A stretch of DNA of 64,000 bases from Paraglaciecola sp. T6c. Lineage in GTDB: Bacteria; Pseudomonadota; Gammaproteobacteria; Enterobacterales; Alteromonadaceae. This document shows, in pieces, positions 9,411 to 52,531 of this stretch. The translations under genes were made by a program, and so were the position numbers. The notes beneath the pieces are model-generated. The model saw only the letters and a program-made list of their open reading frames with translations, did not search any database and was not told where the DNA came from. The number at the start of each line of letters is the position of its first letter. Positions within the stretch are counted from its first letter, which is position 1. The DNA lies in assembly GCF_000014225.1 (NCBI RefSeq), contig NC_008228.1, forward strand, positions 372,001-436,000, written 5' to 3'.

Positions 9411-9515
9411 ACCTATCACACCTGTACCACCTATATCAAAATTGGGACAGGTGGTATAGGTGGGTTAGGTGTATATGTATTTTTGGTTCTGTTTGGATTA
9501 CTTTAAATAACTGTA

Positions 9516-9950: not shown

Positions 9951-9963
9951 ACTTATGAAATTC

Positions 9964-10518
9964 CTATATTTTGGGGAATTGGGGGCCAACTGGATAGTGG
10001 TATCGGCCTCTATACGTTGCGGTACCCTCGGTGCGCATAAAAATAATTTGCCCAATTAATTGACCCGGAGATACAACAACTGGAATTTCACCTTGATTGA
10101 CTATCTCTAAAGTAATGCAGCCCTTAAAACCAGGCGATACGGCCGTTGCTGTAGCAATAATTAATCCTAGACGGCCTAAAGTTGATTTTCCCTCAACGCT
10201 GGCAAAAATATTATTGGGTAAAGACAGGTATTCAAGTGTTGAAGCTAGAATTAACTCTCCCGGATGCAGAGTAAAAGGTGAATTAATACTAAGTCTAATT
10301 CTTTCCTGAAATTCGTGTATGAGCTTGTTATTCAACTTACTATCCACTAGGGTTAAATCAATACATTGCTTCCTTGATTTCTTAAAGATAATAAATTCTT
10401 TACCTAGCCGCACATCTAGAGACGCTGGTTGAAATTGTTCTTCACTAAGTAACGGTGTTATCCAAAAGTCGTTATCAGCTTTAAGGTCTCTTTTGATTAT
10501 TTCTTTAGTCAGTACCAT
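9964..10518 (-). CDS. dCTP deaminase (dCTP deaminase/dUTPase family)
   Basis: 184 residues with the family motifs: SLDVRLG near residue 33, HPGELILAS, the active-site block EGKSTLGRLGL (serine and arginine of the dCTP site), and the segment SPGFKGCITLEIVN with the catalytic glutamate, followed by PGQLIGQIIF. It converts dCTP to dUTP, and no residue expected for activity is obviously missing. It overlaps the 3' end of the HExxH gene by 14 bases, indicating translational coupling. A dCTP deaminase inside an A+T-rich tRNA island, apart from other nucleotide genes, recalls the dCTP-depleting anti-phage enzymes. A role in an element's own nucleotide metabolism is the alternative. Confidence 0.85.
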   Translation of the reverse strand: MVLTKEIIKRDLKADNDFWITPLLSEEQFQPASLDVRLGKEFIIFKKSRKQCIDLTLVDSKLNNKLIHEFQERIRLSINSPFTLHPGELILASTLEYLSLPNNIFASVEGKSTLGRLGLIIATATAVSPGFKGCITLEIVNQGEIPVVVSPGQLIGQIIFMRTEGTATYRGRYHYPVGPQFPKI

Positions 10519-11959
10519 TGACTGGCCACTCCTTTATAACTTCAGCATCATCCCATGATTTAAAAAGAATATTGCAATCAGTTAGAAATACATTTAGATC
10601 CTCTTCTTTATCAGGTAAAAAATCTCTTCCCAAGTTATTGATCCAAGCAGCTAAACCCAATGCTCCATTTGAAGACGGACTCATAGAAAAGTCTGAAGCG
10701 TTTTTTTTGAATCCTGATGGTGAAAACTTAGAAAAATTGTAAATATGGTCGGAAATTTCAGTTTGCTTTCCAATCCATGATTCTTCAGTATGATCAATTA
10801 CTCCAGTCACAAAGTCGCAAGCTTTATCTATAAATTTATCTACTTCACTTTTTGAAATATGTAATATGTAATAATATAATGACTGCGTAGAATCAACTTT
10901 GCGTTCAGTTTTAATTTCTTTTATACCAGAATTTAATTTGTCAAAAAATCTTAAACCTATTTGACTTATGCGCGCATCATCATTAATTTTCTCTTTAAGT
11001 TCGTTTAAACTTGCAGAAAACAATGGATGTGATTCCATCAGATGAATTAATATTCGCATCCTTTGTTCGAATGGAGGATGATAGTTGTCAGAATTTATAT
11101 TTATACTTCGATCTGTATTGAGTTCATTCAATTGGTGTAAAGCAAGAAATGCTGAAGGACCAAAAATAGCAAAACAACCAATATCACATAATATCTCTTT
11201 TAATGTTGAATTAAATATTTCAACAGTTTTATTAACAATACGTTCTTTATCATCTTCTTTCTTTTTACTCTTTTGCTCTGAGGTGTGATTAAACAATAGC
11301 GTGTTATCTAGTTCGACCTCGCTGTCACTTTTTACCGATATGTTAGAGTGCTTTTTTTGTTGTATCAGTTCATCCCAACATTCTCTTATTGAGTTTAAGG
11401 CTTGCTCCCTTATTGAAGCTAAAAAATCATCAGCTCTAAGATGAAACAGTTCATGAGCAACTAAAATATGCAAAAATGCATTTCGTCTGTAAAGATATGG
11501 TATTTCTAGTATCGAGATAGTATCTGATTTTTGTGCGCCATCTGATTTAATTGGTTTCCATATTCTATAGGTTGATAGGGTAGAAGACGTTACAACTAAT
11601 TCTTCAGCAGGAGCAATAATATTTTTTAAGGAGTGAATCATACCAATAGCACTCCAAGGTATTAGTTCAAATCGAGAACTCCTAACTATATTTGTTCTAT
11701 TACTAATTAAGGCGACCTGTTTTTGTAAAGAACAAATTTGAGGATATACATCATTAATTGGATATAAATCGGGGCAATCTGAAATCATTACCCCTATATC
11801 TTCAAGATCTAAATAACACTCTTCTAAATCTTCCCTAAGTTTATCTATAAATATTTTTTGTGTTAAATAATATGTTGCGGCTTCACATTGGGTCAATAAG
11901 CTATTTACCTCCTGTAACTGCAATTTTATGTTTCGAATCGCATTACTAAAAACTTCCAT
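10505..11959 (-). CDS. HExxH putative zinc metallopeptidase (unknown family)
   Basis: A 484-residue protein. The zinc-peptidase motif HELFH is at 169-173, followed about 80 residues later by EILCD (255-259), a plausible third metal ligand, then GPSAFLAL. The first ~85 residues look helical, possibly coiled-coil; the insert at 205-245 is highly charged and low-complexity; the C-terminal ~200 residues are helical. There is no signal peptide or membrane span, so it is cytoplasmic. Transcription order is orf161, this gene, dCTP deaminase, membrane protein. A peptidase paired with a nucleotide-depleting enzyme suggests a sensor/activator plus effector, but I know of no described system with this pairing. 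Codon use is strongly A/T-biased compared with flanking chromosomal genes. Confidence 0.65.
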   Translation of the reverse strand: MEVFSNAIRNIKLQLQEVNSLLTQCEAATYYLTQKIFIDKLREDLEECYLDLEDIGVMISDCPDLYPINDVYPQICSLQKQVALISNRTNIVRSSRFELIPWSAIGMIHSLKNIIAPAEELVVTSSTLSTYRIWKPIKSDGAQKSDTISILEIPYLYRRNAFLHILVAHELFHLRADDFLASIREQALNSIRECWDELIQQKKHSNISVKSDSEVELDNTLLFNHTSEQKSKKKEDDKERIVNKTVEIFNSTLKEILCDIGCFAIFGPSAFLALHQLNELNTDRSININSDNYHPPFEQRMRILIHLMESHPLFSASLNELKEKINDDARISQIGLRFFDKLNSGIKEIKTERKVDSTQSLYYYILHISKSEVDKFIDKACDFVTGVIDHTEESWIGKQTEISDHIYNFSKFSPSGFKKNASDFSMSPSSNGALGLAAWINNLGRDFLPDKEEDLNVFLTDCNILFKSWDDAEVIKEWPVNGTD

Positions 11960-11969
11960 ATTTTATCTC

Positions 11970-12455
11970 TTAAATTGCTAGATTGTATTCCGTTCGCCTG
12001 TCTGTATTTGTGTCGAAAAGTTTTTCGTCGGCTTTTGAACTCTGTATATCTGCTAAAGCTTTTAAAAATTTAGAAGCCAACTCAGCTTTATCTTGACCAA
12101 TCTCAGAGTGATTATGTTTTTCTTTTAAAACGTCATAAGAAAGATTCAATAATTCAAGAATAAAGTCTTTATTGTTCTTGTTGCCAGAAGCACTTTTTAT
12201 GAAACTCTCGAGATCAGAAACACTATTTAAATCTCTGGCGGGTTGCAGGCTAGCTAAATGTGAATAGTCTACTTTCTCTTTGCTAAAGTATTTTTTTCCT
12301 TCAATAGCTTCTTTTAAATAATTTTCAGTAAATCGAAAAACATTTTCTTCGTCTCTGAACGGATACTTATTATTTTTCACAAGTAAAGCGGCACGAGACA
12401 AGTATTTACTTGCATAAACTGAGTTCCGAATTTCAGAAAGTGTATCTATGCTCAT
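11970..12455 (-). CDS. hypothetical helical protein, first gene of island operon
   Basis: 161 residues, rich in charged residues and leucine, lacking cysteine and membrane segments; probably all-alpha. No family recognised. Only 10 bases separate its stop from the start of the HExxH gene, so it is co-transcribed. The promoter should lie in the 12456-12669 spacer, which is very A+T-rich. It could be a partner or regulator of the peptidase, a guess from position. Confidence 0.6.
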   Translation of the reverse strand: MSIDTLSEIRNSVYASKYLSRAALLVKNNKYPFRDEENVFRFTENYLKEAIEGKKYFSKEKVDYSHLASLQPARDLNSVSDLESFIKSASGNKNNKDFILELLNLSYDVLKEKHNHSEIGQDKAELASKFLKALADIQSSKADEKLFDTNTDRRTEYNLAI

Positions 12456-12669
12456 TTAAATTCCCTCAAATATTAATTAGTGACTATTCGAATATGCGGA
12501 CGATGAACCTTAAAGTTATACTATAACTACTAACATAAAAGCATGCAATTGTACATTATTCACATTGAATCTACGTGGTATCTAAATATTCAATTAGCTA
12601 CATATTTGCTACATGGAATGGTTTTTTGAGATTTTGCTTTTTTGGATTAGGCCTGCAGCCCTTTAAAAA

Positions 12670-12746
12670 TGGTGCACCCGACAGGAGTCGAACCTGTGAC
12701 CTTTGCCTCCGGAGGGCAACGCTCTATCCAGCTGAGCTACGGGTGC
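12670..12746 (-). tRNA. tRNA-Arg (anticodon CCG)
   Basis: On the minus strand the sequence starts GCACCCGTAGCTCAGCTGG and ends CGGGTGCACCA. The acceptor stem GCACCCG/CGGGTGC pairs fully, the D-arm carries AGCTCAGCTGGATAGAGC, and the T-arm carries GGTTCGACTCC. The anticodon stem TTGCC/GGCAA encloses the loop CTCCGGA, giving anticodon CCG (reads CGG). The CCA end is encoded. Its 3' end faces the A+T-rich island at lower coordinates, the usual geometry for tRNA-integrated elements. Confidence 0.95.
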
Positions 12747-12858
12747 ATATTTTGCTGATTGATACATGTTGTATCGGTACTGCTATTCTCAATATAAAGC
12801 TTGGGGTGACTCTTTTTACTATGGCGTAAACACGTCCATGATGATATTCCCCCAGCGC

Positions 12859-12925
12859 GTACATCCTGTACTTCCGTTCGCTCCTCTCGACGTGATGTTA
12901 AATCACTTCTCATCGGCTGCGCCGA
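12859..12925 (+). repeat. hairpin-rich repeat related to the four-hairpin family
   Basis: Starts with GTACA-TCC-TGTAC, the same loop as the first hairpin of the family, followed by GTGAT-GTTAA-ATCAC (12892-12906) and TCGGC-TGC-GCCGA (12913-12925). The second hairpin with loop TTC is not well formed and the last loop differs, so this is either a diverged member or a separate repeat type. Confidence 0.5.
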
Positions 12926-12936
12926 CTGGCGCTTAC

Positions 12937-12955
12937 CCAGCTGAGCTACGGGTGC
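12937..12955 (-). pseudogene. tRNA-Arg 5'-end remnant
   Basis: The 19 bases CCAGCTGAGCTACGGGTGC are identical to 12728-12746, the 5' part (acceptor strand and D-arm) of the adjacent tRNA-Arg(CCG). The remainder of the tRNA is absent; hairpin-repeat sequence abuts it. It may be the stump of a second tandem tRNA-Arg or a scar of recombination at the tRNA. Confidence 0.65.
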
Positions 12956-13209
12956 TTCATTTTGTGAGCGCTGATTCTAATGAAATACAGCGTATTTTCC
13001 ACTGTTATTTGGTTTTATTGTTGGGGATGTTTGCTCACAGCCAATTTTTGTCTTTTATCGTGCCTTGGTAATAAAACCACGTTGTCATATTGCTGTGGTA
13101 TTTGCCTTTTATAATCACGCTTTAACAGCATTAACGAACAATTCAAATAATATTATGTGATAACATAACATTTTGTGTTTGATTTCATTTCAACGGTTTA
13201 GGCAAGATT

Positions 13210-41525: not shown

Positions 41526-43112
41526 CTAATTAGCACCGCTTCTTACCTCTTCAACCACTGCTTTTTTGCTTTTTCCATACAAGAAGTTGCATCGCATGGT
41601 AAAAGGATTGGCATGATATCCAATGAGCAGGATAAATAGGGTTAAATTAGCCATCCATGTCGTGCTAAAGCCTTGACTGCTGGCTGTCACACCAATCAGA
41701 TCACTATAAGGGGCGTGGTTGACCACACTGGTTATCCAGCAGAACAAAAAAATCAATTGAAACATCTTTTGCGAATGTAAAATCATGCTGCTCGTGACTG
41801 ATCCCAATGGGAGTAGTAAGCAGTATCCCAGAAGATGAAGTACCGCAATAAAATCCCCTTCTATTGCAAACCTGATTAACGCACCCAAGCAACATAGGCC
41901 TGTAAATATGCTTGCCCCAAGCACTCGTGTCAGCTTTAAGGTGAGTTGATTTCGGTAGGCTGATAAAAGCCCCACGGTGTCAGAGCGCTCATCGCATATA
42001 CTTAATTGGCAAACTGTGACCACAGGAAGGAGCCAGATAATAGCTAATATGACTGCGCGTAGAGTATCGAGTGAAACCAATAAAGAAACTGAAAATAAGC
42101 ACGTAGCAATCACCCAAAAGCGGCGGTTTAAAAGAGTGCTCAGCATCCCTAATTCCGCGCTTAACAGTGGGTAACGTGTATTTAGAGTAAAGAGATAATT
42201 AGTGAGCGCGAAGGAACTTGATGACGTTTTTTTCGAAGTAGAACCTGTGGTGGAACGAGTTGATTTACTCTGATATAGCAGGTGACACGAACCATTTGCT
42301 AGCTTCAACGTGATTGCGAAAACTACTAAGCCTGATAATAGCTGTAAAATAACGGGTATGAAAACAAAGGTGTCATAATTGACCCCTTGCCAATCAAATG
42401 TTTCTTGAATGCGATTCAGCTTCGATATTCCTATCGATATATGTTGGGCTTGCCCTGCGGTTAGTGAGGGGGCGGCTTGCTCCATTTGCCGGGTAAATTC
42501 GCTGTGAGCGGATAATCCAAAAATATTTAAAGTACTGAGTGACGCCCAAACGAAAAAGTAGATTAGGTTGCTATATTTACGTATTTTTTCAGGGAGAATA
42601 TCAAATAATAATGCAAAGCAACTTGCCAAAATAGTGACTGGGAGTATGAGCACTAGGTAGGGCAAGAGGTACGCAGTAACATATATGGTAGTTTGCTCTT
42701 GAGCGATTAACTGTTGCAACATGGCAGCTGCTATCATCAAAGTGCCAATGATATTTAGCAGTAAAACATTGACTACAAACTTAGTGCTTAAGTACTGATT
42801 GATGGTGAAGGAAGAAGAGAGTAGTAAGCTTTGCATTTGAGATGTTTTTTCTTGGGCAACAATACCTGATAGTAAGTAATACCCAAACAGCAGCAGGAAC
42901 GAAGAACTGACTAATGCTACCGACTCCCCCATCCACGCCGAATTGTATATTCCCCGATAGCCATTAATATCTAAGACGGCGTATCCAGCGCTCGCATCAG
43001 GAAAAAGAAACAATGTCGTTGCTATCATGCAAAGACAAGCTAACCACCAGTTAGTTTTGTGGATCCTGTTGTATAAGTCTAATCGAACAATTCGCCAGAA
43101 ATACCAGTTCAT
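41526..43112 (-). CDS. ABC-2 type transporter permease
   Basis: 528 residues with about 11-12 hydrophobic helices, including ALVSSSFLLLFGYYLLSG, LVLILPVTILASCFALLF and a C-terminal LTLFILLIGYHANPF. This is the membrane half of an exporter whose ATPase is encoded one base upstream. The sequence is divergent, with a large non-membrane insert (about 270-310, Ser/Thr/Lys-rich). It may export the small peptides encoded in the tandem array, by proximity to the lux genes. Immunity or a lipid/drug substrate are alternatives. Confidence 0.75.
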   Translation of the reverse strand: MNWYFWRIVRLDLYNRIHKTNWWLACLCMIATTLFLFPDASAGYAVLDINGYRGIYNSAWMGESVALVSSSFLLLFGYYLLSGIVAQEKTSQMQSLLLSSSFTINQYLSTKFVVNVLLLNIIGTLMIAAAMLQQLIAQEQTTIYVTAYLLPYLVLILPVTILASCFALLFDILPEKIRKYSNLIYFFVWASLSTLNIFGLSAHSEFTRQMEQAAPSLTAGQAQHISIGISKLNRIQETFDWQGVNYDTFVFIPVILQLLSGLVVFAITLKLANGSCHLLYQSKSTRSTTGSTSKKTSSSSFALTNYLFTLNTRYPLLSAELGMLSTLLNRRFWVIATCLFSVSLLVSLDTLRAVILAIIWLLPVVTVCQLSICDERSDTVGLLSAYRNQLTLKLTRVLGASIFTGLCCLGALIRFAIEGDFIAVLHLLGYCLLLPLGSVTSSMILHSQKMFQLIFLFCWITSVVNHAPYSDLIGVTASSQGFSTTWMANLTLFILLIGYHANPFTMRCNFLYGKSKKAVVEEVRSGAN

Positions 43113-43113
43113 T

Positions 43114-44025
43114 TTAGTGCTCCTGCAAAGGGCAAGGGGCTGTAAAAAATAGATACGCGTCTTCTAAATTGGGGGCGATAGAACTGGCACATTCATTAGG
43201 GGGAGTGTCGTGAATAACCCTTAATCGCGTTTTCTCGTCAAAAGATTGTGTATCACAAACTTTAAACAGGGTCTCAATTTGCCTCACTTCTGAGTTTTCC
43301 ACCATGATGTCCCACACCTTTCCCTTCATATGCTGAAGTAAATTTTCAGGTGTGTTGAAGGCACAAACCTCTCCCCTAGCGAGTACTAAGATATTATCTG
43401 ATATCGAGGCGAGGTCAGAAATGATATGGCTAGATAAAATAATAATTTTGTCTTTGGCTAATTTCTTTAGCAGGCTGCGAAAGGCAACTCGTTCATGGGG
43501 GTCTAACCCAACGGTAGGCTCATCAAAAATCAGTATGTCGGGTGCTCCAAGCAGCGCTTGTGCGATACCGATTCGTTGACGCATGCCACCTGAAAACGTT
43601 GAAATTTTTTGGTTTTCAAATTCATGTAAGTTGAGCGCATGTAACAATTCAGAGATATCTTGCTCTACATGCGTTCTGGCCACCTGTTTAACCGCGGCTA
43701 AATACTGCAAAAATTGTTTTGCCGTTAAATTTTCATAGACAGCAAAGTGTTGCGGGAGCAGGCCTAATCGTTGCCTGATTAAGTGCGGGCAATCTGCCAC
43801 ATCTTGGCCATTTAATTGGATGCTGCCAGAGCTGGGACGCTCCAACTGCGCAATTAACTTAAGCAGAGTCGATTTGCCGGCACCGTTTGATCCGACTAAT
43901 CCAATTATGCCAGGAGTTAACGTTAAGCTTATGTTATTGAGCGCTGTTTGATTTTCGTCGTACGACTTGCTTAATTTTTGTATTTCCAGCTGAACTTGTT
44001 TTTTTGGAAACCTTGCGTTTAACAT
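43114..44025 (-). CDS. ABC transporter ATP-binding protein
   Basis: 303 residues. Walker A GSNGAGKSTLLKL (near 49), Q-loop LLPQHFAVYENLTAKQFL, signature FSGGMRQRIGIAQALLG, Walker B ILIFDEPTVGLDP, and the H-loop SSHIISDL. It belongs to the CcmA/DrrA group that pairs with ABC-2 permeases for export of peptides, antibiotics or lipids. Co-transcribed with the permease, divergent from luxR, with a lux-box-like site in the shared spacer. Confidence 0.92.
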   Translation of the reverse strand: MLNARFPKKQVQLEIQKLSKSYDENQTALNNISLTLTPGIIGLVGSNGAGKSTLLKLIAQLERPSSGSIQLNGQDVADCPHLIRQRLGLLPQHFAVYENLTAKQFLQYLAAVKQVARTHVEQDISELLHALNLHEFENQKISTFSGGMRQRIGIAQALLGAPDILIFDEPTVGLDPHERVAFRSLLKKLAKDKIIILSSHIISDLASISDNILVLARGEVCAFNTPENLLQHMKGKVWDIMVENSEVRQIETLFKVCDTQSFDEKTRLRVIHDTPPNECASSIAPNLEDAYLFFTAPCPLQEH

Positions 44026-44036
44026 ATTGCGTGACC

Positions 44037-44051
44037 TCTGTAGGTTACAGA
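44037..44051. promoter_or_regulatory. palindrome TCTGTA-GGT-TACAGA ahead of ABC operon
   Basis: A perfect 15-bp palindrome 12 bases upstream of the ATPase start. It resembles lux-box half sites (CTGT/ACAG) but with 5 rather than 8 intervening bases. It could be an operator or part of the leader. Confidence 0.4.
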
Positions 44052-44086
44052 ACCCCTATTGTAGGAGCTTATGTGCTACTTCCTAC

Positions 44087-44102
44087 TTGTTACTTTTGAC
44101 AG
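44087..44102. promoter_or_regulatory. lux-box-like site between ABC operon and luxR
   Basis: TTGT-TACTTTTG-ACAG matches the lux-box pattern CTGT-N8-ACAG with one change. It lies in the divergent spacer, so it could serve either the exporter operon or luxR. Confidence 0.45.
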
Positions 44103-44248
44103 GTTTGCAGATTAATAGTGTGATCTTTTGGTAGTTTTACTTACCATTTTTTGCTAGCTTGGTTATTAAATGAACGAGTGCTACATGCTTAATGACGCAA
44201 ATGCACTCTTCGTGACTAAAATCTAAAAACATTTCCAGCAAGGAAGGG

Positions 44249-44995
44249 ATGATGCAAGTCGAAGAATTCTACGAATTACTAGAAAGTGTAGACGAAAGTA
44301 GCTCAATTGATGCTCTAAAGGAAACTTGCGAAAGGTTCTGTCAGCTAATTGATATCCCGTTTTATTTATTGGGCGTCATCGGGCAAACATCCTCATACTC
44401 ACCGACGATTAGAGTTATTTCGAATTATCCAGAGAAATGGCTCGAGTTTTACTTTAAGGAAAGTGAACAACAAAACGACCCTGTTGTTAAATACATCTTT
44501 GAAAAGCAATCTCCTATCCGCTGGGACAAACTCGTTGAGTACCAAGACTTTTCTTCTACTAAAGGTTTGCTCGTTTTCGAAAAAGCAGCGGCATATGGCT
44601 TGTACAATGGGCTAAGCATCCCTATTCGATCTACTTCTGAGAATATCGCCGTATTCAGTGTAGCGATAGATGAACGTTCCGATGCGAATAGAGTATTAGA
44701 TAACGCTCAGATGTTTTGCCACACATTTGCAACGCACTTATTCGAGCGATACGTTCTGCTTGAGATAAGTGCAAGCGACGAAACAGATAGACGGGAGCTA
44801 ACGAAAAGAGAACTTGAATGCCTGTTTTGGGCTTGTGAAGGTAAAACTGCCTGGGAAATTTCGCAGATAATAAATGTTTCTGAGCGAACAGTTTTATTTC
44901 ACTTAGGTAACTCAAACACCAAGCTAGGCGCTATTAATCGACAGCATGCTGTCGCGCTAGCGATTAAGAAGGGCATTATTAAACCAAATATCTAA
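44249..44995 (+). CDS. luxR: LuxR-type autoinducer-binding transcriptional regulator
   Basis: 248 residues. The N-terminal domain (about 20-165) has the acyl-homoserine-lactone pocket pattern WLEFYFKESEQQNDPVVKY followed by a conserved tryptophan (IRWDKL). The C-terminal LuxR helix-turn-helix (about 185-245) has LTKRELECLFWACEGKTAWEIS and NVSERTVLFHL. It binds the signal made by LuxI (about 1.2 kb downstream) and activates from lux boxes. AGGAAGGG lies directly before the ATG. Its 3' end overlaps the convergent RibD-like gene by 4 bases. Confidence 0.92.
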   Translation: MMQVEEFYELLESVDESSSIDALKETCERFCQLIDIPFYLLGVIGQTSSYSPTIRVISNYPEKWLEFYFKESEQQNDPVVKYIFEKQSPIRWDKLVEYQDFSSTKGLLVFEKAAAYGLYNGLSIPIRSTSENIAVFSVAIDERSDANRVLDNAQMFCHTFATHLFERYVLLEISASDETDRRELTKRELECLFWACEGKTAWEISQIINVSERTVLFHLGNSNTKLGAINRQHAVALAIKKGIIKPNI

Positions 44996-45951
44996 TTTAG
45001 GTATAAACGATGCTCACTGTTAAATTGTTGTTTAGTCATATCAGATTCAGGACGAGCGTTAAACCTTATCCCCTTACTGAAGTGATAGCTGCTGGATATT
45101 TTCCAATCGTTATTCAGTAAGTTTATCGGTTGAGTATTTTCGAGTTCGGTCTGGTGTAAGCATAGATAATAAATCATTTCGTCGACGAGGCCACTCACGA
45201 TCATTTCTTTAGCTAAATCAGTGTGAACAATGATCAGTCCACAGGTCATCTTATGTTCGCACGCGTGTGCTAAAAGTTTCTTCACGTCCAGTAAACTATT
45301 GACAGTGTGATGTTGAACAGCTTGGTTAGCATTATTTTTTGTGTTGCTGACATTGAATGGCAAACAACCGGGCTCTTCAGCTACAAACTCCATATTGCCA
45401 ACCAACCTTTTTATATAGTTGATCGCTTCTATATCCCCATCAAACGTAGAGAAATCCGCTTTTCTGCCCGACAGATCAGCACACGTGATACAACTTATCC
45501 AAGGCCTTTTCTTTTGTTCGTTGGTCTGCATGGTTATAACCGTCCCGAGATCCATCAAGGCATTGTTGATAGCAATAACGTTGATATTATTAGAAAGAAA
45601 ATTGGTTTTATGATTGTCACTAAACCTAAAATGAGCAGGTATACGCGGATACAGAATGTTGACGATACCTGCGTCGGTGGCACTTTTAACCAGTGCGTTA
45701 CTATCCTTAATCAAAGCATTTGGAGGCAAGGACAAGTAAAGGTCTGCCCCGGCACCACTTGCCTTTATCTGACTCAGTAGCAGAGCTTCAGATTCCAGCT
45801 GAGTGCTTCCTTGAAGCTTTAGTATCTTGCCCTTAAGACAAAATAACCAAGCTGCGCCACAATAATGTGAAATAGACGCTGCTTTATCTATTACTAACGA
45901 CAAACAGCGAGAACGTAAGGCAAAAATATTGTTGTTCATTGCGGTATCCAC
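44992..45951 (-). CDS. degenerate RibD-like protein (deaminase-reductase fold, active site lost)
   Basis: 319 residues that I align by eye with RibD. The N-terminal half follows the deaminase pattern (SEALLLSQIKASGAGADLYL ... ALVKSATDAGIVNILYP). However, the zinc ligands H-A-E and P-C-x(n)-P-P-C are replaced (LESEA; LPPNALIKDSNALV). The second half follows the reductase domain: KRPWISCITCADLSGRKAD, INYIKRLVGN, and the C-terminal LVDEMIYYLCLHQ. A catalytic deaminase is therefore unlikely; a reductase-only or binding role remains possible. It sits tail to tail with luxR and head to head with luxI, with two lux boxes in the luxI spacer, so its expression is probably signal-dependent. Confidence 0.6.
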   Translation of the reverse strand: MDTAMNNNIFALRSRCLSLVIDKAASISHYCGAAWLFCLKGKILKLQGSTQLESEALLLSQIKASGAGADLYLSLPPNALIKDSNALVKSATDAGIVNILYPRIPAHFRFSDNHKTNFLSNNINVIAINNALMDLGTVITMQTNEQKKRPWISCITCADLSGRKADFSTFDGDIEAINYIKRLVGNMEFVAEEPGCLPFNVSNTKNNANQAVQHHTVNSLLDVKKLLAHACEHKMTCGLIIVHTDLAKEMIVSGLVDEMIYYLCLHQTELENTQPINLLNNDWKISSSYHFSKGIRFNARPESDMTKQQFNSEHRLYLN

Positions 45952-45996
45952 TTAACTCCATTTCGATATTTTAGCTGCTTTAAATTTTTATATATC

Positions 45997-46012
45997 CTGT
46001 TAGATCTGACGG
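45997..46012. promoter_or_regulatory. lux-box-like site 1 in the luxI/ribD-like spacer
   Basis: CTGT-TAGATCTG-ACGG fits CTGT-N8-ACAG with one change and has the palindromic core AGATCT, which is shared with the box at 50258-50277. Centre is 31 bp from box 2, about three helical turns. Confidence 0.6.
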
Positions 46013-46027
46013 TGTTTTATAAAAATA

Positions 46028-46043
46028 CTGTCAGATACTACAG
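46028..46043. promoter_or_regulatory. lux-box-like site 2 in the luxI/ribD-like spacer
   Basis: CTGT-CAGATACT-ACAG matches the conserved half sites and the 8-base spacing exactly. It lies 125 bases before luxI and 77 bases before the divergent RibD-like start. Autoinduction of luxI from such a site is the usual arrangement. Confidence 0.65.
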
Positions 46044-46167
46044 GAGAAAATTATTGGAATTAGGCTAGGGACAATGATTAAAACCCTACTGTAAAATGTG
46101 ATAGCTGAATTTATTGAATTTCGTTGAATATGCTTAGTTGCAAGTTAACTAAACTAGGTTCAACGCA

Positions 46168-46761
46168 ATGAGACAAATAAAAGTAATAGATAAAAACAAT
46201 AATGAATTTGGACGTAATCCAGAGTTAATTAATGATATGTTCAAATTAAGATCTGAAGTCTTTAAAGGGCGATTAGGTTGGGATGTCGAATCTGATAAAG
46301 GCTTGGAAAAAGACTTTTTTGATAACCAGCAGCCAAGTTATATTGCTATGTTGAATGAGAGCGATGATATTGTTGGTGGATGGCGTGCAATACCAACAAC
46401 AAAAAGTTATATGCTAAAAGATATATTCCCAGAGTTATTGAGAGGGGAGTTAGCACCTGAGGAAAAAAATATTTGGGAAATAAGTCGCTTTGCTATTAGT
46501 AAAAATAGAACAGGGAAATCTGCTCGAGTCGCAAGCGAAGATACAGCTGCTTTAGTAAGTTCATTTTATTCATTTGCGATTAAAAATGGCATTACAGATT
46601 ATGTACTGGTAACCACCACGGCCTGTGAGCGAATTCTTCGGTATTTGGGCGTAAATATGCGCAGAATGGGAGATGGTCAGGCGATGCAAATTGGGGTAGA
46701 GAAATCTGTCGCCCTATGGGTTAAAGTGGACAACAATTTAAATATTAATCCTATTCATTAA
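46168..46761 (+). CDS. luxI: acyl-homoserine-lactone synthase (LuxI family)
   Basis: 197 residues. All the invariant LuxI residues are visible: R and F in LRSEVFKG, W in LGWDVE, D-x-x-D in EKDFFD, R in GGWRAIP, F in LKDIFPELL, and the E-x-x-R of IWEISRFAI. It joins S-adenosylmethionine with an acyl-ACP to make the signal. The acyl chain cannot be read from sequence. The gene stands alone, driven by the promoter with two lux boxes. A possible hairpin (GGGCG/CGCCC, about 46784-46808) follows. Confidence 0.93.
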   Translation: MRQIKVIDKNNNEFGRNPELINDMFKLRSEVFKGRLGWDVESDKGLEKDFFDNQQPSYIAMLNESDDIVGGWRAIPTTKSYMLKDIFPELLRGELAPEEKNIWEISRFAISKNRTGKSARVASEDTAALVSSFYSFAIKNGITDYVLVTTTACERILRYLGVNMRRMGDGQAMQIGVEKSVALWVKVDNNLNINPIH

Positions 46762-47160
46762 CAATATATTCCTATACTATTGGGCGCTCGTTTTTTGTAC
46801 GTCGCCCGAACATTCATCTTTTTTACTTCCCAACTGTTTTCTCATTTTCCCCGAAATAGATATCAAATATCTTAATAAATATAATCTATTGAAATGGTGT
46901 TTTAGATCATTTCTCAAACGCTCTTATGCCTTATAAAAAGGGATAGGTGAACAGTGTTGTCTGTATCCTGTTAAGCGCTTGTATTGTCATTTTAAACAGG
47001 TTAATGCAGTTCCCTAGGCTATTTTAACTAATCTACAGCTGCGCAAGCGAAGCTCGACTTCATGAACATAAGCTACTGCATACAAAAAGGTGACTGAGTT
47101 AGGTACGCCTATATCATTGAAGTAACTGTGGTTTTTTTAGTAAGTGAGCGTTTACTTTTT

Positions 47161-47188
47161 CAGCCTTCAGCCTTCAGCCTTCAGCCTT
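47161..47188 (+). repeat. 7-bp tandem repeat CAGCCTT x4
   Basis: Four exact copies of CAGCCTT followed by TAGC. It lies between luxI and the peptide array and outside any gene I can support. Seven-base units are prone to slippage. Confidence 0.85.
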
Positions 47189-47315
47189 TAGCGAATGATG
47201 ATAAGTCAGGGTGCTGATATGTGTTTCAAAATTGAGGTGGCACGAAATATTAAAAATTATCGTTTGCTGATATACATTCGGTGGGGAAAATAAGCGTGAT
47301 GATGAGTGAAAGACT

Positions 47316-47343
47316 GCGCCAGGATTCAAATTACCACTGGCGC
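47316..47343 (-). terminator. hairpin after the peptide gene array
   Basis: GCGCCAG and CTGGCGC pair perfectly around a 14-base loop, 8 bases beyond the last array gene's stop; on the minus strand AGTCTTTC follows. A plausible terminator with a weak T-run. Confidence 0.55.
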
Positions 47344-47351
47344 CGTATATG

Positions 47352-47558
47352 CTAAGCCAAAGTACTTGAACTAATCAAATCAGAAGCTTGTGTAGCAGCA
47401 TCCATAATTTGCGGATCGATTTTGTCATAGAGTTGATTTAACAAATCGGAGTTTGCAATCGCTGTTATATTTTCTACTTCATCTGTTTTTACAATGAAGT
47501 AATAGTTTGTCATTGAATAAAAGTGTACACCGTTTACTGAAAATGCCGAGCCTTTCAT
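47352..47558 (-). CDS. diverged 68-residue paralogue of the array peptides
   Basis: It aligns end to end with the 71-residue peptides: GVHFYSMTNYY against GVNFIAFTDYA, ITAIANSDLLNQLYDKIDP against LTAAVNTDLMNVLADKVDP, and MDAATQAS against LDAATHAA. So it is a sixth, older copy with the conserved pattern T-A-x-x-N-x-D-L-x-N-x-L-x-D-K-x-D-P. AAAAGGATTCTTT precedes its ATG. A hairpin GGCGG-TGCAAG-CCGCC lies between it and the array. It may be a specialised partner, such as an immunity or nucleator subunit, or simply a divergent product; function unknown. Confidence 0.7.
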   Translation of the reverse strand: MKGSAFSVNGVHFYSMTNYYFIVKTDEVENITAIANSDLLNQLYDKIDPQIMDAATQASDLISSSTLA

Positions 47559-47606
47559 AAAGAATCCTTTTTAAATTAAGGGCGGCTTGCACCGCCAGGT
47601 CACTTA

Positions 47607-47822
47607 TTAGCTAACAGAAACTTTGCTAGCGATGTCGTTAATGCTATTGGCTGCATGTGTCGCTGCATCAAGTAATGCAGGGTCCACTTTGTCAGCGAGT
47701 ACGTTCATAAGGTCGGTGTTTACTGCAGCAGTTAAGTCACCTAGTTCTTTTGCGTCATATACCAGCGCATAGTCAGTAAATGCGATGAAATTTACGCCTT
47801 GGGTTGCGAAGTTAAGTTGCAT
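47607..47822 (-). CDS. array peptide, copy 1 (71 residues)
   Basis: One of five near-identical 71-residue proteins: N-terminal MQLNFATQGVNFIAF, then LTAAVNTDLMNVLADKVDP and DAAT, with a C-terminal VSVS. There is no cysteine, no classical signal peptide and no membrane helix. It is acidic and rich in Ala, Asn, Asp and Val. This copy differs from the others at K25 and K67 and has D17. Each copy has its own AAGGAGAAACACC site. No family recognised. Candidate roles: secreted peptide, ribosomally made precursor, or assembling structural subunit. Confidence 0.75.
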   Translation of the reverse strand: MQLNFATQGVNFIAFTDYALVYDAKELGDLTAAVNTDLMNVLADKVDPALLDAATHAANSINDIASKVSVS

Positions 47823-47848
47823 GGTGTTTCTCCTTTTTTAGTGTGTGA

Positions 47849-48064
47849 TTAGCTAACAGATACGTTGCTAGCGATGTCGTTAATGCTATTGGCTACTTGT
47901 GTCGCTGCATCAAGTAATGCAGGGTCCACTTTGTCAGCGAGTACGTTCATAAGGTCGGTGTTTACTGCAGCAGTTAAGTCACCTAGTTCTTGCGCGTCAT
48001 ATACCAGCGCATAGTCAGTGAATGCGATGAAATTTACGCCTTGGGTTGCGAAGTTAAGTTGCAT
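47849..48064 (-). CDS. array peptide, copy 2 (71 residues)
   Basis: Same protein as copy 1 apart from Q25, Q56, V57 and N67; it keeps D17. It lies 26 bases upstream (in transcription) of copy 1 with an identical ribosome binding site, so all copies should be made at similar rates from one mRNA. Function unknown. Confidence 0.75.
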   Translation of the reverse strand: MQLNFATQGVNFIAFTDYALVYDAQELGDLTAAVNTDLMNVLADKVDPALLDAATQVANSINDIASNVSVS

Positions 48065-48090
48065 GGTGTTTCTCCTTTTTTAGTGTGTTA

Positions 48091-48306
48091 TTAGCTAACA
48101 GATACGTTGCTAGCGAGGTCGTTAATGCTATTGGCTGCATGTGTCGCTGCATCAAGTAATGCAGGGTCCACTTTGTCAGCGAGTACATTCATAAGATCGG
48201 TGTTTACTGCGGCAGTTAAGTCACCTAGTTCTTGCGCGTCATATACCAGTGCATAGCCAGTGAATGCGATGAAATTTACGCCTTGGGTTGCGAAGTTAAG
48301 TTGCAT
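48091..48306 (-). CDS. array peptide, copy 3 (71 residues)
   Basis: Differs from copy 2 by G17, H56, A57 and L64. The G17 form is shared with copies 4 and 5, the D17 form with copies 1 and 2, suggesting block duplication. Function unknown. Confidence 0.75.
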   Translation of the reverse strand: MQLNFATQGVNFIAFTGYALVYDAQELGDLTAAVNTDLMNVLADKVDPALLDAATHAANSINDLASNVSVS

Positions 48307-48332
48307 GGTGTTTCTCCTTTTTTAGTGTGTGA

Positions 48333-48548
48333 TTAGCTAACAGATACGTTGCTAGCGAGGTCGTTAATGCTATTGGCTGCTTGTGTCGCTGCATCAAGTA
48401 ATGCAGGGTCCACTTTGTCAGCGAGTACATTCATAAGATCGGTGTTTACTGCGGCAGTTAAGTCACCTAGTTCTTGTGCGTCATATACCAGTGCATAGCC
48501 AGTGAATGCGATGAAATTTACGCCTTGCGTTGCGAAGTTAAGTTGCAT
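48333..48548 (-). CDS. array peptide, copy 4 (71 residues)
   Basis: Identical to copy 3 except Q56. Same spacer and ribosome binding site as the other units. Function unknown. Confidence 0.75.
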   Translation of the reverse strand: MQLNFATQGVNFIAFTGYALVYDAQELGDLTAAVNTDLMNVLADKVDPALLDAATQAANSINDLASNVSVS

Positions 48549-48574
48549 GGTGTTTCTCCTTTTTTAGTGTGTGA

Positions 48575-48790
48575 TTAGCTAACTGATACGTTGCTAGCGA
48601 TGTCGTTAATGCTATTGGCTGCATGTGTCGCTGCATCAAGTAATGCAGGGTCCACTTTGTCAGCGAGTACGTTCATAAGATCGGTGTTTACTGCGGCAGT
48701 TAAGTCACCTAGTTCTTGCGCGTCATATACCAGTGCATAGCCAGTGAATGCGATGAAATTTACGCCTTGGGTTGCGAAGTTAAGTTGCAT
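48575..48790 (-). CDS. array peptide, copy 5 (71 residues), first in transcription
   Basis: Promoter-proximal unit with G17, Q25, H56, A57, I64 and N67. Its leader keeps GGAGAAACACC but the sequence further upstream leaves the repeat and enters the 48791-48896 promoter spacer. Function unknown. Confidence 0.75.
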   Translation of the reverse strand: MQLNFATQGVNFIAFTGYALVYDAQELGDLTAAVNTDLMNVLADKVDPALLDAATHAANSINDIASNVSVS

Positions 48791-48816
48791 GGTGTTTCTC
48801 CTTTCGTTTTATATAC

Positions 48817-48849
48817 GTTATCGAACGAACTAATTTTTGTTGCGATAAC
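48817..48849. promoter_or_regulatory. inverted repeat upstream of the peptide array
   Basis: GTTATCG (48817-48823) and CGATAAC (48843-48849) form a perfect 7-bp inverted repeat with 19 bases between, starting 27 bases before the first array gene. A hairpin CTAACGCA-AATAAG-TGCGTTAG lies beyond it. No lux-box half sites are seen in this spacer, so the array may be read through from the upstream DUF6895-like gene or use another regulator. Confidence 0.4.
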
Positions 48850-48896
48850 AAGTTATGAATGACTAACGCAAATAAGTGCGTTAGCTATCCAATTTT

Positions 48897-50156
48897 TTAA
48901 GCAATTGCTAGTTTCTTCCAGTCGATACAGTCATCAATCTTTTTAATCGTGTTGTGGACTGAAGTTTCGAAGCAGTTACTTTTATTCTTCATTTTTTCGT
49001 CATGAAAATAGCCAATAGAGCCGCGCTCATTCCGTTGTGAATTAACAAATTGAATTGTGTTATCAATGACATGGCCCAAACCGACTGTCTCAATTGCTTC
49101 ACGATCAGTTTCAAGTGATTTGAGAACGGTCAGTAGAAGGGGAAGGTTGTACTCGTCGGCTAATCTTAGGGAGTGACCCAGGGAATATATGAGCTTTAAA
49201 TCGACAGGATCCGCGTCAACAAAAATGTCGTCTAATTGATCATAAATAATTCGCAAGCACATCGCTGCGACCAGCATGGTGTGATAATTTTTAGCCCACG
49301 TTTGGAACTTTTCTCCGTGGCGCTGCTTAACATCATCACCCATTCGCCCTACCGGACCTGGAATGATTGTGTCGTTTTGTATCACCTTGGCGATTTCACA
49401 AAAAACCAAGTCCAAATGCCATTCTTTGCAATGCCCAGTTAAGGCGAGGGACGCAAGTAACTCTAGCGATACGTCGAGATCTTGCTTTGCAATATATTTT
49501 ATTAGCAGGGCCTCTAGAGAGCCGGCAATCCCATGGTCGAAACGCAGCCCAACATCTAAAAAGTCATGGCATTTGCGCATGCCGGTCAGATAAAACACGT
49601 TATGCGTTAAAGCGTATGCCTGGGACTCATCAGTGTGAATAGGGTCGGGTAAACGGGTGAAGTTTGACATGGCATATAGACTTTTTACTGGGAATATATG
49701 TGCTAAGTCGCCGTGGATCTGCGTAGCAAAAATATAATCCATCATACGAAAGGGCACTAACTCCAACGAACGTGCATGTTGTGAATAAAGCTCGTCCGTA
49801 AAATAGTTTTCGTGTTCTGTGTTGTTAACCCCAAGGTGCTTCGCGACTGCAATGGGTAATCCAAAGGCGAGGAAAAGTTCGCGATTTGCTTTAGCTAATT
49901 GAAGAAATTTTTCATCTTTCAGTTGATCAAAGAATTGTTTTTCAACGATTTTGCTTTTTGATTTAATTGTATGGTTATTACACACTAGTAAATACAGAGA
50001 ATATTCGCAAAATGACTTTCTATGTAAAAATGTAGTTTCACTATCTGAAATTCTATATAAATCAAAATATTCTTTATTTTCATCTATCCAAATGTCTATG
50101 TTTTTAATTTTGTTTTCTATGTCTTTCCTAAATGATTCACTTTTCAATTTATTCAT
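48897..50156 (-). CDS. DUF6895-like protein 1
   Basis: 419 residues, soluble, mainly helical, probably an alpha/alpha-toroid like the DUF6895 family of actinobacterial gene clusters. The shared core is SQAYALTHNVFYLTGM (about 179-194) and the later KNYHTMLVAAM. Paralogous to the divergently transcribed gene at 50332: both have RLPDPI, QAYALTHN, CKEWHL or CKRWHL, TIxPGP, and FQTWxKxYHTMLVA. The conserved histidines in LTHNVF and YHTML could be catalytic or metal-binding. The peptide array follows on the same strand after 106 bases, suggesting it acts on or with the peptides. AGGGGAAACAAA precedes the ATG. No known reaction. Confidence 0.65.
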   Translation of the reverse strand: MNKLKSESFRKDIENKIKNIDIWIDENKEYFDLYRISDSETTFLHRKSFCEYSLYLLVCNNHTIKSKSKIVEKQFFDQLKDEKFLQLAKANRELFLAFGLPIAVAKHLGVNNTEHENYFTDELYSQHARSLELVPFRMMDYIFATQIHGDLAHIFPVKSLYAMSNFTRLPDPIHTDESQAYALTHNVFYLTGMRKCHDFLDVGLRFDHGIAGSLEALLIKYIAKQDLDVSLELLASLALTGHCKEWHLDLVFCEIAKVIQNDTIIPGPVGRMGDDVKQRHGEKFQTWAKNYHTMLVAAMCLRIIYDQLDDIFVDADPVDLKLIYSLGHSLRLADEYNLPLLLTVLKSLETDREAIETVGLGHVIDNTIQFVNSQRNERGSIGYFHDEKMKNKSNCFETSVHNTIKKIDDCIDWKKLAIA

Positions 50157-50212
50157 TTTGTTTCCCCTGAAATTGATGGGGTAATAATTGTTTGTTTTTT
50201 TGATTTGGGAAA

Positions 50213-50228
50213 CTGTAAAAAGTATCAG
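50213..50228. promoter_or_regulatory. lux-box-like site in divergent DUF6895 spacer (left)
   Basis: CTGT-AAAAAGTA-TCAG has the 8-base spacing and one changed base in the right half site. It lies 57 bases before the left DUF6895-like gene. Confidence 0.45.
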
Positions 50229-50257
50229 GTTATTATTTTTAGTGTTTAATTGAGGTT

Positions 50258-50277
50258 AACTGATAGATCTTACAGTT
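50258..50277. promoter_or_regulatory. lux-box-like palindrome in divergent DUF6895 spacer (right)
   Basis: AACTGATAGATCTTACAGTT is a 20-bp near-perfect palindrome with the lux-box layout CTG(A/T)-N8-ACAG and the same TAGATCT core as the box upstream of luxI (45997-46012). It lies 54 bases before the right DUF6895-like gene, a typical activator distance. Confidence 0.65.
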
Positions 50278-50331
50278 CGCTTAATGTTGTCTTTGATTAC
50301 TATTAACGAACTTAAATAAGGAATGACTATC

Positions 50332-51621
50332 ATGAATAATCAAAATTTTGCAGAAAGTAGTACGACGTTAAAATACTTAGAAAAAAGAATTAATAAAATT
50401 GATAACTGGGTAGATAGAAACTTGTCATGCTTCCAACCGCTAGTCGCTGACTGCCCCAAAGGGACTGATTATCGCCGTAAAGCGTTCGGCGAAGCTGGCT
50501 TGTACATATATGTAGCCGCACAATATGAAGCATTTGGATCACCAACAGCATTAGTTGAGAGCTATTGGGAAACCATCTCTTGCAACGACTACCTGGATTT
50601 AGCTAGGCGGAATCTCTCCACATATGGTCTTTATGCATTCCCTGTCGCTGTGGCAAACAGCTTGGGCAAAAGTACTGAAAAACTAGATGCTTATTTCGAA
50701 GATACTTACCTATCTACTCATTTACGATCTATAGAACTCCCCCCTTTTCGACTGATGGATAACCTGTTTTTCGCAAAAATGTATGGGTTATCTGAAATGC
50801 CGTATTCAGTTGAAGAGGTGAATAGGTTGACCAACATGAATCGTCTGCCAGATCCGATTCAATGTGATGAAGCGCAAGCTTATGCTTTAACGCATAATAT
50901 TTTTTACTTGACTGGTATGAAGGTCAATCATGACTTTCTTGGGCTTGAGCCTACGTACGGACACCTTCAGTTACAAGCTCTAGAAGCTCTTTTCGTGCGC
51001 TATATGGCAAATAATAATTTAGATTTGGCGTTAGAGTTATTGATGTGTTTGATTTTGACAGGACTTTGCAAGCGTTGGCATTTACAGTATGCATTAGACT
51101 TGGTAGACAAGAATTTAATAGATCACACTATAGTACCGGGCCCAGGTGAGCCAGAAGGTTTCGAAAAGCTAAGTGAAACCAGTGATGAATTTCAAACGTG
51201 GGTCAAGCATTACCACACAATGCTTGTGGCGGGCATGACATTTAGACTCGCCGCGACCCATATAGATAGCATATGGGCAAGAGGCCCCTCATTATCTTAC
51301 TTCGCAGCATATGCTTCAGGACAGTTGGTTAGACTGCTTAATGATTACAACTTGCCATTAGCACTGACGGTGCTCAAGACTTTAGAAGAGCAAATACCAG
51401 ATATTCGGCGTTTAGATATAGAGTATATCCTCACCTTTTCTCTGCGTTTTATCGAGCAACAATGCCAAGCAGACGGCAAAGTTGGCTTTTACTATGATCA
51501 ATACCACGCGTTAACGACAACGGGGAAAACTTGGGAAGAAGCCGTTGATACGATTCAAGTGCCTTTATTGAATATTCACCGCCAAATCAATTGGCAACAA
51601 TTCGATGCTTTAGCAAGCTAA
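50332..51621 (+). CDS. DUF6895-like protein 2
   Basis: 429 residues, paralogue of the divergent 48897-50156 gene, sharing about a third of residues by eye. Conserved blocks: NRLPDPIQCDEAQAYALTHN, CKRWHLQYA, TIVPGPGEPEG, FQTWVKHYHTMLVAGM and YNLPLALTVLKTLE. ATG at 50332 is chosen over 50323 because AAGGA at 50318-50322 is correctly spaced only for the later one. The CPBP-like gene follows after 10 bases, so the two form an operon under the lux-box-like promoter. Function unknown; maturation of the array peptides is a hypothesis. Confidence 0.65.
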   Translation: MNNQNFAESSTTLKYLEKRINKIDNWVDRNLSCFQPLVADCPKGTDYRRKAFGEAGLYIYVAAQYEAFGSPTALVESYWETISCNDYLDLARRNLSTYGLYAFPVAVANSLGKSTEKLDAYFEDTYLSTHLRSIELPPFRLMDNLFFAKMYGLSEMPYSVEEVNRLTNMNRLPDPIQCDEAQAYALTHNIFYLTGMKVNHDFLGLEPTYGHLQLQALEALFVRYMANNNLDLALELLMCLILTGLCKRWHLQYALDLVDKNLIDHTIVPGPGEPEGFEKLSETSDEFQTWVKHYHTMLVAGMTFRLAATHIDSIWARGPSLSYFAAYASGQLVRLLNDYNLPLALTVLKTLEEQIPDIRRLDIEYILTFSLRFIEQQCQADGKVGFYYDQYHALTTTGKTWEEAVDTIQVPLLNIHRQINWQQFDALAS

Positions 51622-51631
51622 GGAGGCGTAC

Positions 51632-52531
51632 ATGCAACTCACCATAAAAAAGTTTAACTTTCTTATTGCCGTTATTTTTTTCACCAGTATCTCAGTGCAA
51701 TGTTTATTTGCCTATATCGACATTATTAGCTTTGGGGGAGTGCTAATAGTGAGCTTAATGTGGATCCCCTTATTGGCGTGTTTATTAAGTGGAAAAAAAT
51801 GCATTCACTTGATGCTAAACAGTGTGAAACGTATCGATATTAAATGGATGGGGATAGGTATTTTTACTGGCTTCGTATTATTGTTCGCAGAGCAAGGCTC
51901 TTTGTATTTTGGGCGACTGGGACATCTAAACGATCAAGTGTATTTTTTAGATACAGTACGCCAACAAATCCACATAACTAATGTCGCGTTGTTGTTAGGT
52001 AACGAGCCTCAATCCTACGCTTTCTTTGCCTTTAACTTGTGTCTTACGATCACTGTTGTTGGGGTGCTAATGGCTATTTTAGTTGTGTTTCCCTTCGAGG
52101 CTTGCTGGAGAGGAGTTATCTTTCAAGAGCTATCCAATTTGGTCGGGATCCATAAGGCTCCAATCTTTGTAGGTCTGTTGATTGGACTGTGTGCCATGCC
52201 TTTAAGCCTTTTTGGTTACATTAACCCGAACTCTCCCTTACTAAGTGCTTTTATTTACATGCCGCTGTTATCCGTAGGCCTGAGTTACGTGTTAGCGGGA
52301 TTAGCAATAAATACAGTCAGTGCTTGGCCTACCGCCATTGCGTTAGGTATTTATTTCATTGGTAGTCGTAACTTGTTCTTGCTGCCCGATGATGCCGGCG
52401 CAAGTATGGCGGCTAAAGGGGTTGTTCTAGCTATAGCAACACTTTGGATCAGAAGTGCATTGATCAGCCGATTTGAACAAGCGGAGCAACAAAAAGAAGA
52501 TATAACCCACCAAGCGCAAGCTTGCTCCTAG
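51632..52531 (+). CDS. CPBP-like intramembrane protein
   Basis: 299 residues with about eight hydrophobic helices. The segment FEACWRGVIFQEL (about 151-163) resembles motif 1 of CPBP (CAAX-protease/bacteriocin-processing) proteins, normally EExxxRG; here the first glutamate is F, leaving a single E-x-x-x-R. The later histidine motifs are not evident. It could be a CPBP homologue that handles or confers immunity to the array peptides, or an inactive relative. AAGGAGGCGTAC before the ATG is one of the strongest ribosome sites in the window. Operonic with DUF6895-like protein 2. Confidence 0.55.
   Translation: MQLTIKKFNFLIAVIFFTSISVQCLFAYIDIISFGGVLIVSLMWIPLLACLLSGKKCIHLMLNSVKRIDIKWMGIGIFTGFVLLFAEQGSLYFGRLGHLNDQVYFLDTVRQQIHITNVALLLGNEPQSYAFFAFNLCLTITVVGVLMAILVVFPFEACWRGVIFQELSNLVGIHKAPIFVGLLIGLCAMPLSLFGYINPNSPLLSAFIYMPLLSVGLSYVLAGLAINTVSAWPTAIALGIYFIGSRNLFLLPDDAGASMAAKGVVLAIATLWIRSALISRFEQAEQQKEDITHQAQACS

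Follow-up and report, generated by a model that had tools for sequence, protein, structure and literature searches.

We analysed a 64,000-nucleotide stretch of the genome of Paraglaciecola sp. T6c (NC_008228.1, positions 372,001 to 436,000; hereafter the window). Positions 41526-52531 of it hold an ATP-binding cassette (ABC) ATPase and permease, luxR, a degenerate RibD homologue, luxI, an array of small peptide genes, and two DUF6895 genes, which we call A and B (Table 1). An earlier note on this DNA had named the ABC pair, LuxR, LuxI, the peptides, and DUF6895, and all of them are where it placed them, even if the profile match of the permease is weak and under its cut-off. We read the locus, with a probability of about 0.6, as a cluster for a ribosomally synthesised and post-translationally modified peptide (RiPP) under LuxI/LuxR control, in which two stand-alone DUF6895 enzymes would act on two types of precursor, with epimerisation as the likely chemistry.

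Genes of the locus and the peptide array

This type of array was found at three loci—in the window, in Paraglaciecola mesophila KMM 241 (NZ_BAEP01000055.1), and in Shewanella salipaludis SHSM-M6 (L048)—and the parts form one unit in all of them. The order in P. mesophila is that of the window; its array is interrupted by contig ends, so that one 71-residue copy is visible. The Shewanella locus holds three 72-residue copies, a diverged copy, both enzymes, the membrane protein, luxI, the RibD-like gene, luxR, and the ABC ATPase. Its lux half is inverted relative to the window, and a contig end precedes any permease. LuxI is an autoinducer synthase by Pfam and the sole PF00765 match in the whole genome in a profile search; LuxR carries the autoinducer-binding and GerE domains, and the Shewanella counterparts match in the same way.

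The five near-identical 71-residue peptide genes and the diverged sixth of the earlier note are seen in the open reading frames (ORFs), their spacing, and their identities. The array consists of five 216-nt ORFs in 47607-48790 at a spacing of exactly 242 nt. Of the five 300-nt repeat windows, four share 95-100% identity; the fifth extends past the array end and is at 79%. A strong AAAGGAGAAACACC-like ribosome-binding site is identical across all five copies. The sixth gene has its own and encodes 68 codons with 41% identity to the first array copy. By its sequence, it is a separate lineage with counterparts in P. mesophila and Shewanella. Purifying selection on the array peptides is shown at the level of codon changes, with a Ks of 0.24 between copy 1 and the P. 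mesophila copy (Table 1). Among array copies, Ks is 0.04-0.16 in the window and 0.06-0.33 in Shewanella, and it is saturated or nearly so between genera. Because the copies are more alike within than between genomes, this suggests that gene conversion keeps them alike. None of the window peptides has a Pfam or NCBIfam match above cut-off.

Table 1. Features of the locus, with positions in the window and the evidence for each
Feature	Position	Strand	Evidence
ABC-2-type permease (export or immunity)	41526..43112	-	PF12698 E 5.8e-4, under its cut-off; 85% identity to P. mesophila
ABC ATPase	43114..44025	-	PF00005 3.2e-35; identity 89% P. mesophila, 55% Shewanella
Weak lux-box-like site 5' of ABC genes	44085..44104	.	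15.9 bits, within null range (max 17.2)
LuxR-type regulator	44249..44995	+	PF03472 3.7e-27, PF00196 6e-16
Degenerate RibD homologue	44992..45951	-	hhalign 95.4% vs 20 RibD proteins; controls 0.0-0.5%
Lux-box-like site, RibD-like gene/luxI gap	46026..46045	.	13 scored consensus positions; member of training matrix
LuxI acyl-homoserine lactone (AHL) synthase	46168..46761	+	PF00765 3.3e-34
Diverged putative precursor, 68 aa	47352..47558	-	Counterparts: P. mesophila 96%, Shewanella 59%
Putative precursor copy 5, 71 aa	47607..47822	-	ORF, 242-nt repeat, motif scan
Putative precursor copy 4, 71 aa	47849..48064	-	ORF, 242-nt repeat, motif scan
Putative precursor copy 3, 71 aa	48091..48306	-	ORF, 242-nt repeat, motif scan
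Putative precursor copy 2, 71 aa	48333..48548	-	ORF, 242-nt repeat, motif scan
Putative precursor copy 1, 71 aa	48575..48790	-	ORF, repeat, motif scan; 10 synonymous/1 non-synonymous change vs P. mesophila
Structured spacer, enzyme A/array	48791..48896	-	-24.4 kcal/mol, z -3.1
DUF6895 enzyme A	48897..50156	-	PF21836 1.4e-32; conserved residues retained
Lux-box-like site facing enzyme A	50211..50230	.	21.1, second best in 64 kb; null max 17.2
Lux-box-like site facing enzyme B	50258..50277	.	25.4, best in 64 kb; null max 17.2
DUF6895 enzyme B	50323..51621	+	PF21836 5.7e-40; AlphaFold pLDDT 94.5
Membrane protein with FEACWRG motif, CPBP membership unproven	51632..52531	+	46% identity to Shewanella; no Pfam match

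DUF6895 enzymes and their partner peptides

Enzymes A and B match DUF6895 (PF21836) with 113.7 and 137.9 bits, respectively, against a curated cut-off of 23.8. In an alignment of 40 DUF6895 proteins that includes both, nine residues are invariant (E57, Y187, T190, H191, F194, Y195, D234, E238, and H298, numbered as in B), and their invariance across phyla suggests catalysis. The AlphaFold model of enzyme B (pTM 0.94) is almost all helix. Foldseek with this model found nothing in the PDB at E 0.001 or better, and a PDB sequence search with the DUF6895 profile gave no usable match. Among the matches listed (the best 50 of 398 at E 10), importin and armadillo repeats come top by E-value, with TM near 0.2, and better overlaps are those of squalene-hopene cyclase 8pak (probability 0.91, TM 0.37/0.45) and glycoside hydrolase 3k11 (probability 0.90, TM 0.33). 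The predicted fold could, as a suggestion from the model, be a toroid.

The only function named for the family comes from a title, in which Shi et al. (ACS Catal. 2026, cited in PMC13352647) call a DUF6895 member a lasso-peptide epimerase. That enzyme shares with A and B the Pfam family and, on our reading, a peptide substrate. The title speaks of a lasso peptide, whereas the Paraglaciecola locus has small YVLVV-type precursors, five plus one in number, with two enzymes, lux genes, and, in the ten locus proteins scanned, no lasso family. Epimerisation is most likely, as a best guess, the chemistry. The enzymes might instead perform another reaction in a RiPP cluster, such as cyclisation or crosslinking, or only bind or chaperone the peptide: the window cores differ from lasso peptides, and the better structural overlaps listed are with toroidal enzymes of other chemistry. 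We consider this unlikely, if a serious contender, given the epimerase of the title and the nine invariant residues, which speak for catalysis.

Many partner peptides of DUF6895 genes share, by eye, a motif in which a hydrophobic stretch is separated by two or three small or polar residues from Y/W/F-V-L-V-V/W (YVLAWERYVLVV type). All five array peptides carry it (GVNFIAFTGYALVYDA). We scored the 570 ORFs of the window with a matrix built from 17 such stretches, all from outside Paraglaciecola and Shewanella, and the five array copies rank 3-7. In a test of adjacency, with each locus’s own clade left out of the matrix and 35-174 small ORFs per locus, the highest score fell on the ORF immediately upstream of DUF6895 in 21 out of 42 loci, against 2.9 expected. 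Two tandem partner peptides precede a single DUF6895 gene at three loci (L055 8409-8934, L073 2700-3004, and L037 ~8100-8703), so small precursor arrays also occur outside this lineage. No NCBIfam match was found for ten partner peptides from outside the window, nor any Pfam match above cut-off for nine (three have weak hits below it), and six short core strings occur in none of the papers searched. A family of enzymes of unknown function is thus linked, in distant bacteria, to small partner genes of a recognisable class, which lie outside the Pfam and NCBIfam models searched.

In the window and in Shewanella, the short putative precursor genes adjoin that of enzyme A, the presumed modifying enzyme, as in a RiPP cluster. 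The motif, this adjacency, and the conservation of the locus together make the array peptides most likely DUF6895-modified RiPP precursors. Peptides that act as translated, as bacteriocin-like toxins or signals with DUF6895 serving immunity or handling, would suit genes that adjoin an ABC pair and a membrane protein. However, the motif travels with DUF6895 across distant groups, and the invariant residues resemble those of an enzyme, which leaves this alternative improbable.

Probable quorum control and a model of the locus

Candidate lux-type sites were picked with the generic lux consensus, which is weak alone because 15 places in the 64 kb score at least 13, including 46026..46045. A forward matrix made from three window sites was scanned over the 15.5-kb Shewanella locus, against a null of 40 Markov sequences (maximum 15.3). 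Five Shewanella sites exceed that maximum: one in the luxI/RibD-like gap (22.0), three in the A/B gap (19.7, 17.8, and 16.5), and one inside enzyme A (16.7). A reverse matrix, from four Shewanella sites chosen by the generic consensus, was scanned over the window against a null of 15 sequences. The two best window sites are both in the A/B gap (Table 1), whereas the candidates preceding luxI (46087) and the ABC genes (44085) fall within the null, and 45995 scores lower. Lux-type control of the two enzyme transcripts is accordingly well supported by these sites, which exceed the null in both genera; for luxI, the RibD-like gene, and the ABC genes such control is putative and less supported, since the other window sites do not exceed it. 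The claim of lux-box-like sites 5' of at least three transcripts therefore stands for the enzyme A/B gap and is weaker at these other sites.

A tblastn search of 56 other loci with the LuxI and LuxR of the window matched at the Shewanella locus only. Quorum control thus belongs to the Paraglaciecola/Shewanella lineage and not to the DUF6895 family: this array type was seen only with lux genes, even if 55 of the 56 other loci gave no tblastn match to them, so that the refuting condition set in the earlier note applies to the enzymes and not to the array. That two independent units, the lux genes and the peptide cluster, came to lie next to each other by chance, as the lack of lux genes at those other loci might suggest, is very improbable, since both halves stay together in Shewanella despite the changed order and a matrix trained on both window halves finds sites in both halves of the Shewanella locus.

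In the proposed mechanism, LuxI would make the AHL, and LuxR-AHL would bind the lux-box-like sites between enzymes A and B, and probably also near luxI. It would switch on A and the array on the minus strand and B and the membrane protein on the plus strand. The five 71-residue peptides and the 68-residue peptide would be precursors, and the core to be modified would be their aromatic/hydrophobic stretch (FIAFTGYALVYD; FYSMTNYYFIVKT). The stand-alone DUF6895 enzymes, predicted to be all-helical and with a conserved E/Y/H/D/E/Y-H set, would modify this core, most likely from L to D, with the five-fold gene dosage supplying substrate. Processing, export, or immunity may fall to the membrane protein and the ABC pair, and neighbouring cells are the probable targets of the product. 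From operon structure and LuxR binding to epimerisation, processing, export, and bioactivity, we infer these steps. That the signal drives peptide production, as first proposed, is a good inference because the parts travel together in the three loci and both enzyme transcripts are repeatedly preceded by lux-type sites; what that proposal lacked was the link to modification by DUF6895. Mass production and export of the peptide are plausible, and the ABC pair could equally serve immunity instead of export.

Several points weigh against this model. The epimerase assignment comes from the title of a paper on lasso peptides, and a Pfam scan of ten locus proteins revealed no lasso family and neither cyclase nor leader peptidase of that class. 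The locus shows no clear leader peptidase, and the model leaves the RibD homologue without a part. The register of the motif was set by hand, which is a weak point; two longer ORFs, the membrane protein among them, score above the array copies, and the sixth peptide is outside the top 20. Eleven of the 21 adjacency successes are actinomycetes with near-identical peptides; the other 18 loci give 10 against 1.1 expected. The rule fails in the other 21 of the 42 loci, 17 of them without a better reading of the top ORF. In the remaining four, the top ORF either belongs to the array (L048) or runs into the beginning of the DUF6895 frame (L057, L063, and L089). Among the 17, where it lies elsewhere, the adjacent ORF ranks second in L055 and L073. 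Finally, the consensus scan gave the array no lux-type site of its own; it follows enzyme A on the same strand across the structured spacer, and the two would form one transcript.

The layout resembles that of the yydFGHIJ epipeptide locus of Bacillus subtilis, with a precursor, an epimerase, a putative membrane protease, and an ABC pair (PMC7026026). That system uses a radical SAM epimerase, where the Paraglaciecola locus has DUF6895, and a single precursor, and the available part of the source mentions no lux genes. The locus is not an epipeptide cluster of the YydF type, as no radical SAM family was found among the ten proteins scanned, nor a lasso peptide cluster by the same scan. In Nostoc, AHL-linked induction of the RiPP microviridin involves epibiont quorum signals (PMC8386392). 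This case also joins quorum signals and a RiPP; by its title the signal comes from another organism, whereas in Paraglaciecola the cluster itself contains luxI and luxR. Among the 20 listed of 64 literature matches, no title concerned a RiPP cluster carrying its own luxI and luxR. If our reading is true, this would be such a RiPP. The locus offers a compact system, in a marine bacterium, in which to test peptide epimerisation by stand-alone enzymes without radical SAM chemistry.

Relatives, origin, and neighbouring features

Scanning 84,980 species genomes gave 187 pattern matches and 43 confirmed DUF6895 loci, loci matching the short patterns being those detectable. Identity to enzyme B is 97% in P. 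mesophila, 64% in Shewanella, and 22-40% in the other 41 loci, the 40% ones over 60 residues only. Within the genus, DUF6895 is present in 2 of the 22 genomes examined, those of the window and P. mesophila. At the left flank, the seven examined of the other 20 have no permease, LuxR, RibD-like, LuxI, peptide, DUF6895, or membrane-protein gene, and each has somewhere in the stretch an ABC ATPase of 25-31% identity only. The peroxiredoxin and 72-residue flanking genes are 0.7 kb apart in one (G006) and ~4 kb apart in two, with an unrelated ABC gene between them (G007 and G008); within the stretch, only peroxiredoxin and HtpX are paired in three (G012, G005, and G010), and for one the sequence covers the left flank only (G015). 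We read the locus as a putatively acquired insertion. Its GC content is 38-44%, lower than in the 5 kb to its left (45-49%) and the 4 kb to its right (45-47%). Divergence from P. mesophila is uneven, with identities of 99.5% for LuxI, 97% for LuxR, 87% for the RibD-like protein, and 85% for the permease. We rejected a virus origin (56 pattern matches in viral_contigs, none confirmed as DUF6895) and a plasmid origin (DUF6895 not found in plasmids searched with enzyme B).

Four proteobacterial loci (L039 7748-9196, L041 7350-8600, L042 7544-9078, and L045 7695-9300) carry DUF6902 (PF21843) genes, and all four also match DUF6895. A small ORF 5' of each has at least three repeats (for example GDGAELFSSGL, GDGVDMFTTSC, or GEGTQFSTSSF), and these ORFs look like multi-core precursors. 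The four loci share the match to DUF6895 with the Paraglaciecola locus and differ in their GDGxxLFSSGL-type motifs and in the absence of lux genes by tblastn. We put at even odds a wider view, in which DUF6895 and its relative DUF6902 would define a broad, largely undescribed RiPP class whose enzyme, helical and stand-alone, would epimerise a short core of aromatic/hydrophobic type. The Paraglaciecola/Shewanella island would then be a form of it under quorum control, in which enzymes and precursor types are paired and gene conversion keeps the tandem array of precursors alike.

In Streptococcus and Gemella, three loci (L058 6886-12454, L069 731-6284, and L075 459-4253) have a common gene order in which a small WSGWALVW-type peptide gene is followed by two ORFs, DUF6895, and two unassigned ORFs. 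By Pfam, run on L058, the first two ORFs there are an ABC ATPase and an unassigned one of permease size. Both Streptococcus loci then have a larger transporter-like ORF, which in L058 is an ABC exporter by Pfam.

The RibD-like protein has no Pfam, NCBIfam, or usable PDB sequence match. The degenerate RibD homologue proposed earlier is nonetheless borne out when its profile is compared with that of 20 RibD proteins (E 1.9e-8 over 250 columns and both domains, with four control profiles; Table 1). The zinc ligands of RibD deaminases are HAE and two cysteines, and in the profile alignment they are replaced. Its AlphaFold model, from two sequences, has a pLDDT of 47.9 and was not used. The CPBP-like label given to the membrane protein was not confirmed. 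CPBP proteins (PF02517) have EExxxR and FxxxH motifs; a Pfam search to E 1 found no match, and hhalign against a CPBP profile (6 proteins from 15/16 loci) gave 0.2%, with FEACWRG aligned on EExxxR as the sole local match.

PADLOC matched none of the five proteins tested for anti-phage defence, which we set aside. Scans for promoters and terminators gave no more than chance would (15 against 23.4 expected, and 8 against 6.8), and a search of the window for known RNA families matched only a tRNA, away from the locus. A short tandem repeat of CAGCCTT lies at 47165-47192, in the gap between luxI and the array end. The tRNA gene, at 12673-12746, is at the edge of a low-GC stretch (33-36%, 9000-13000), which is possibly another insertion.

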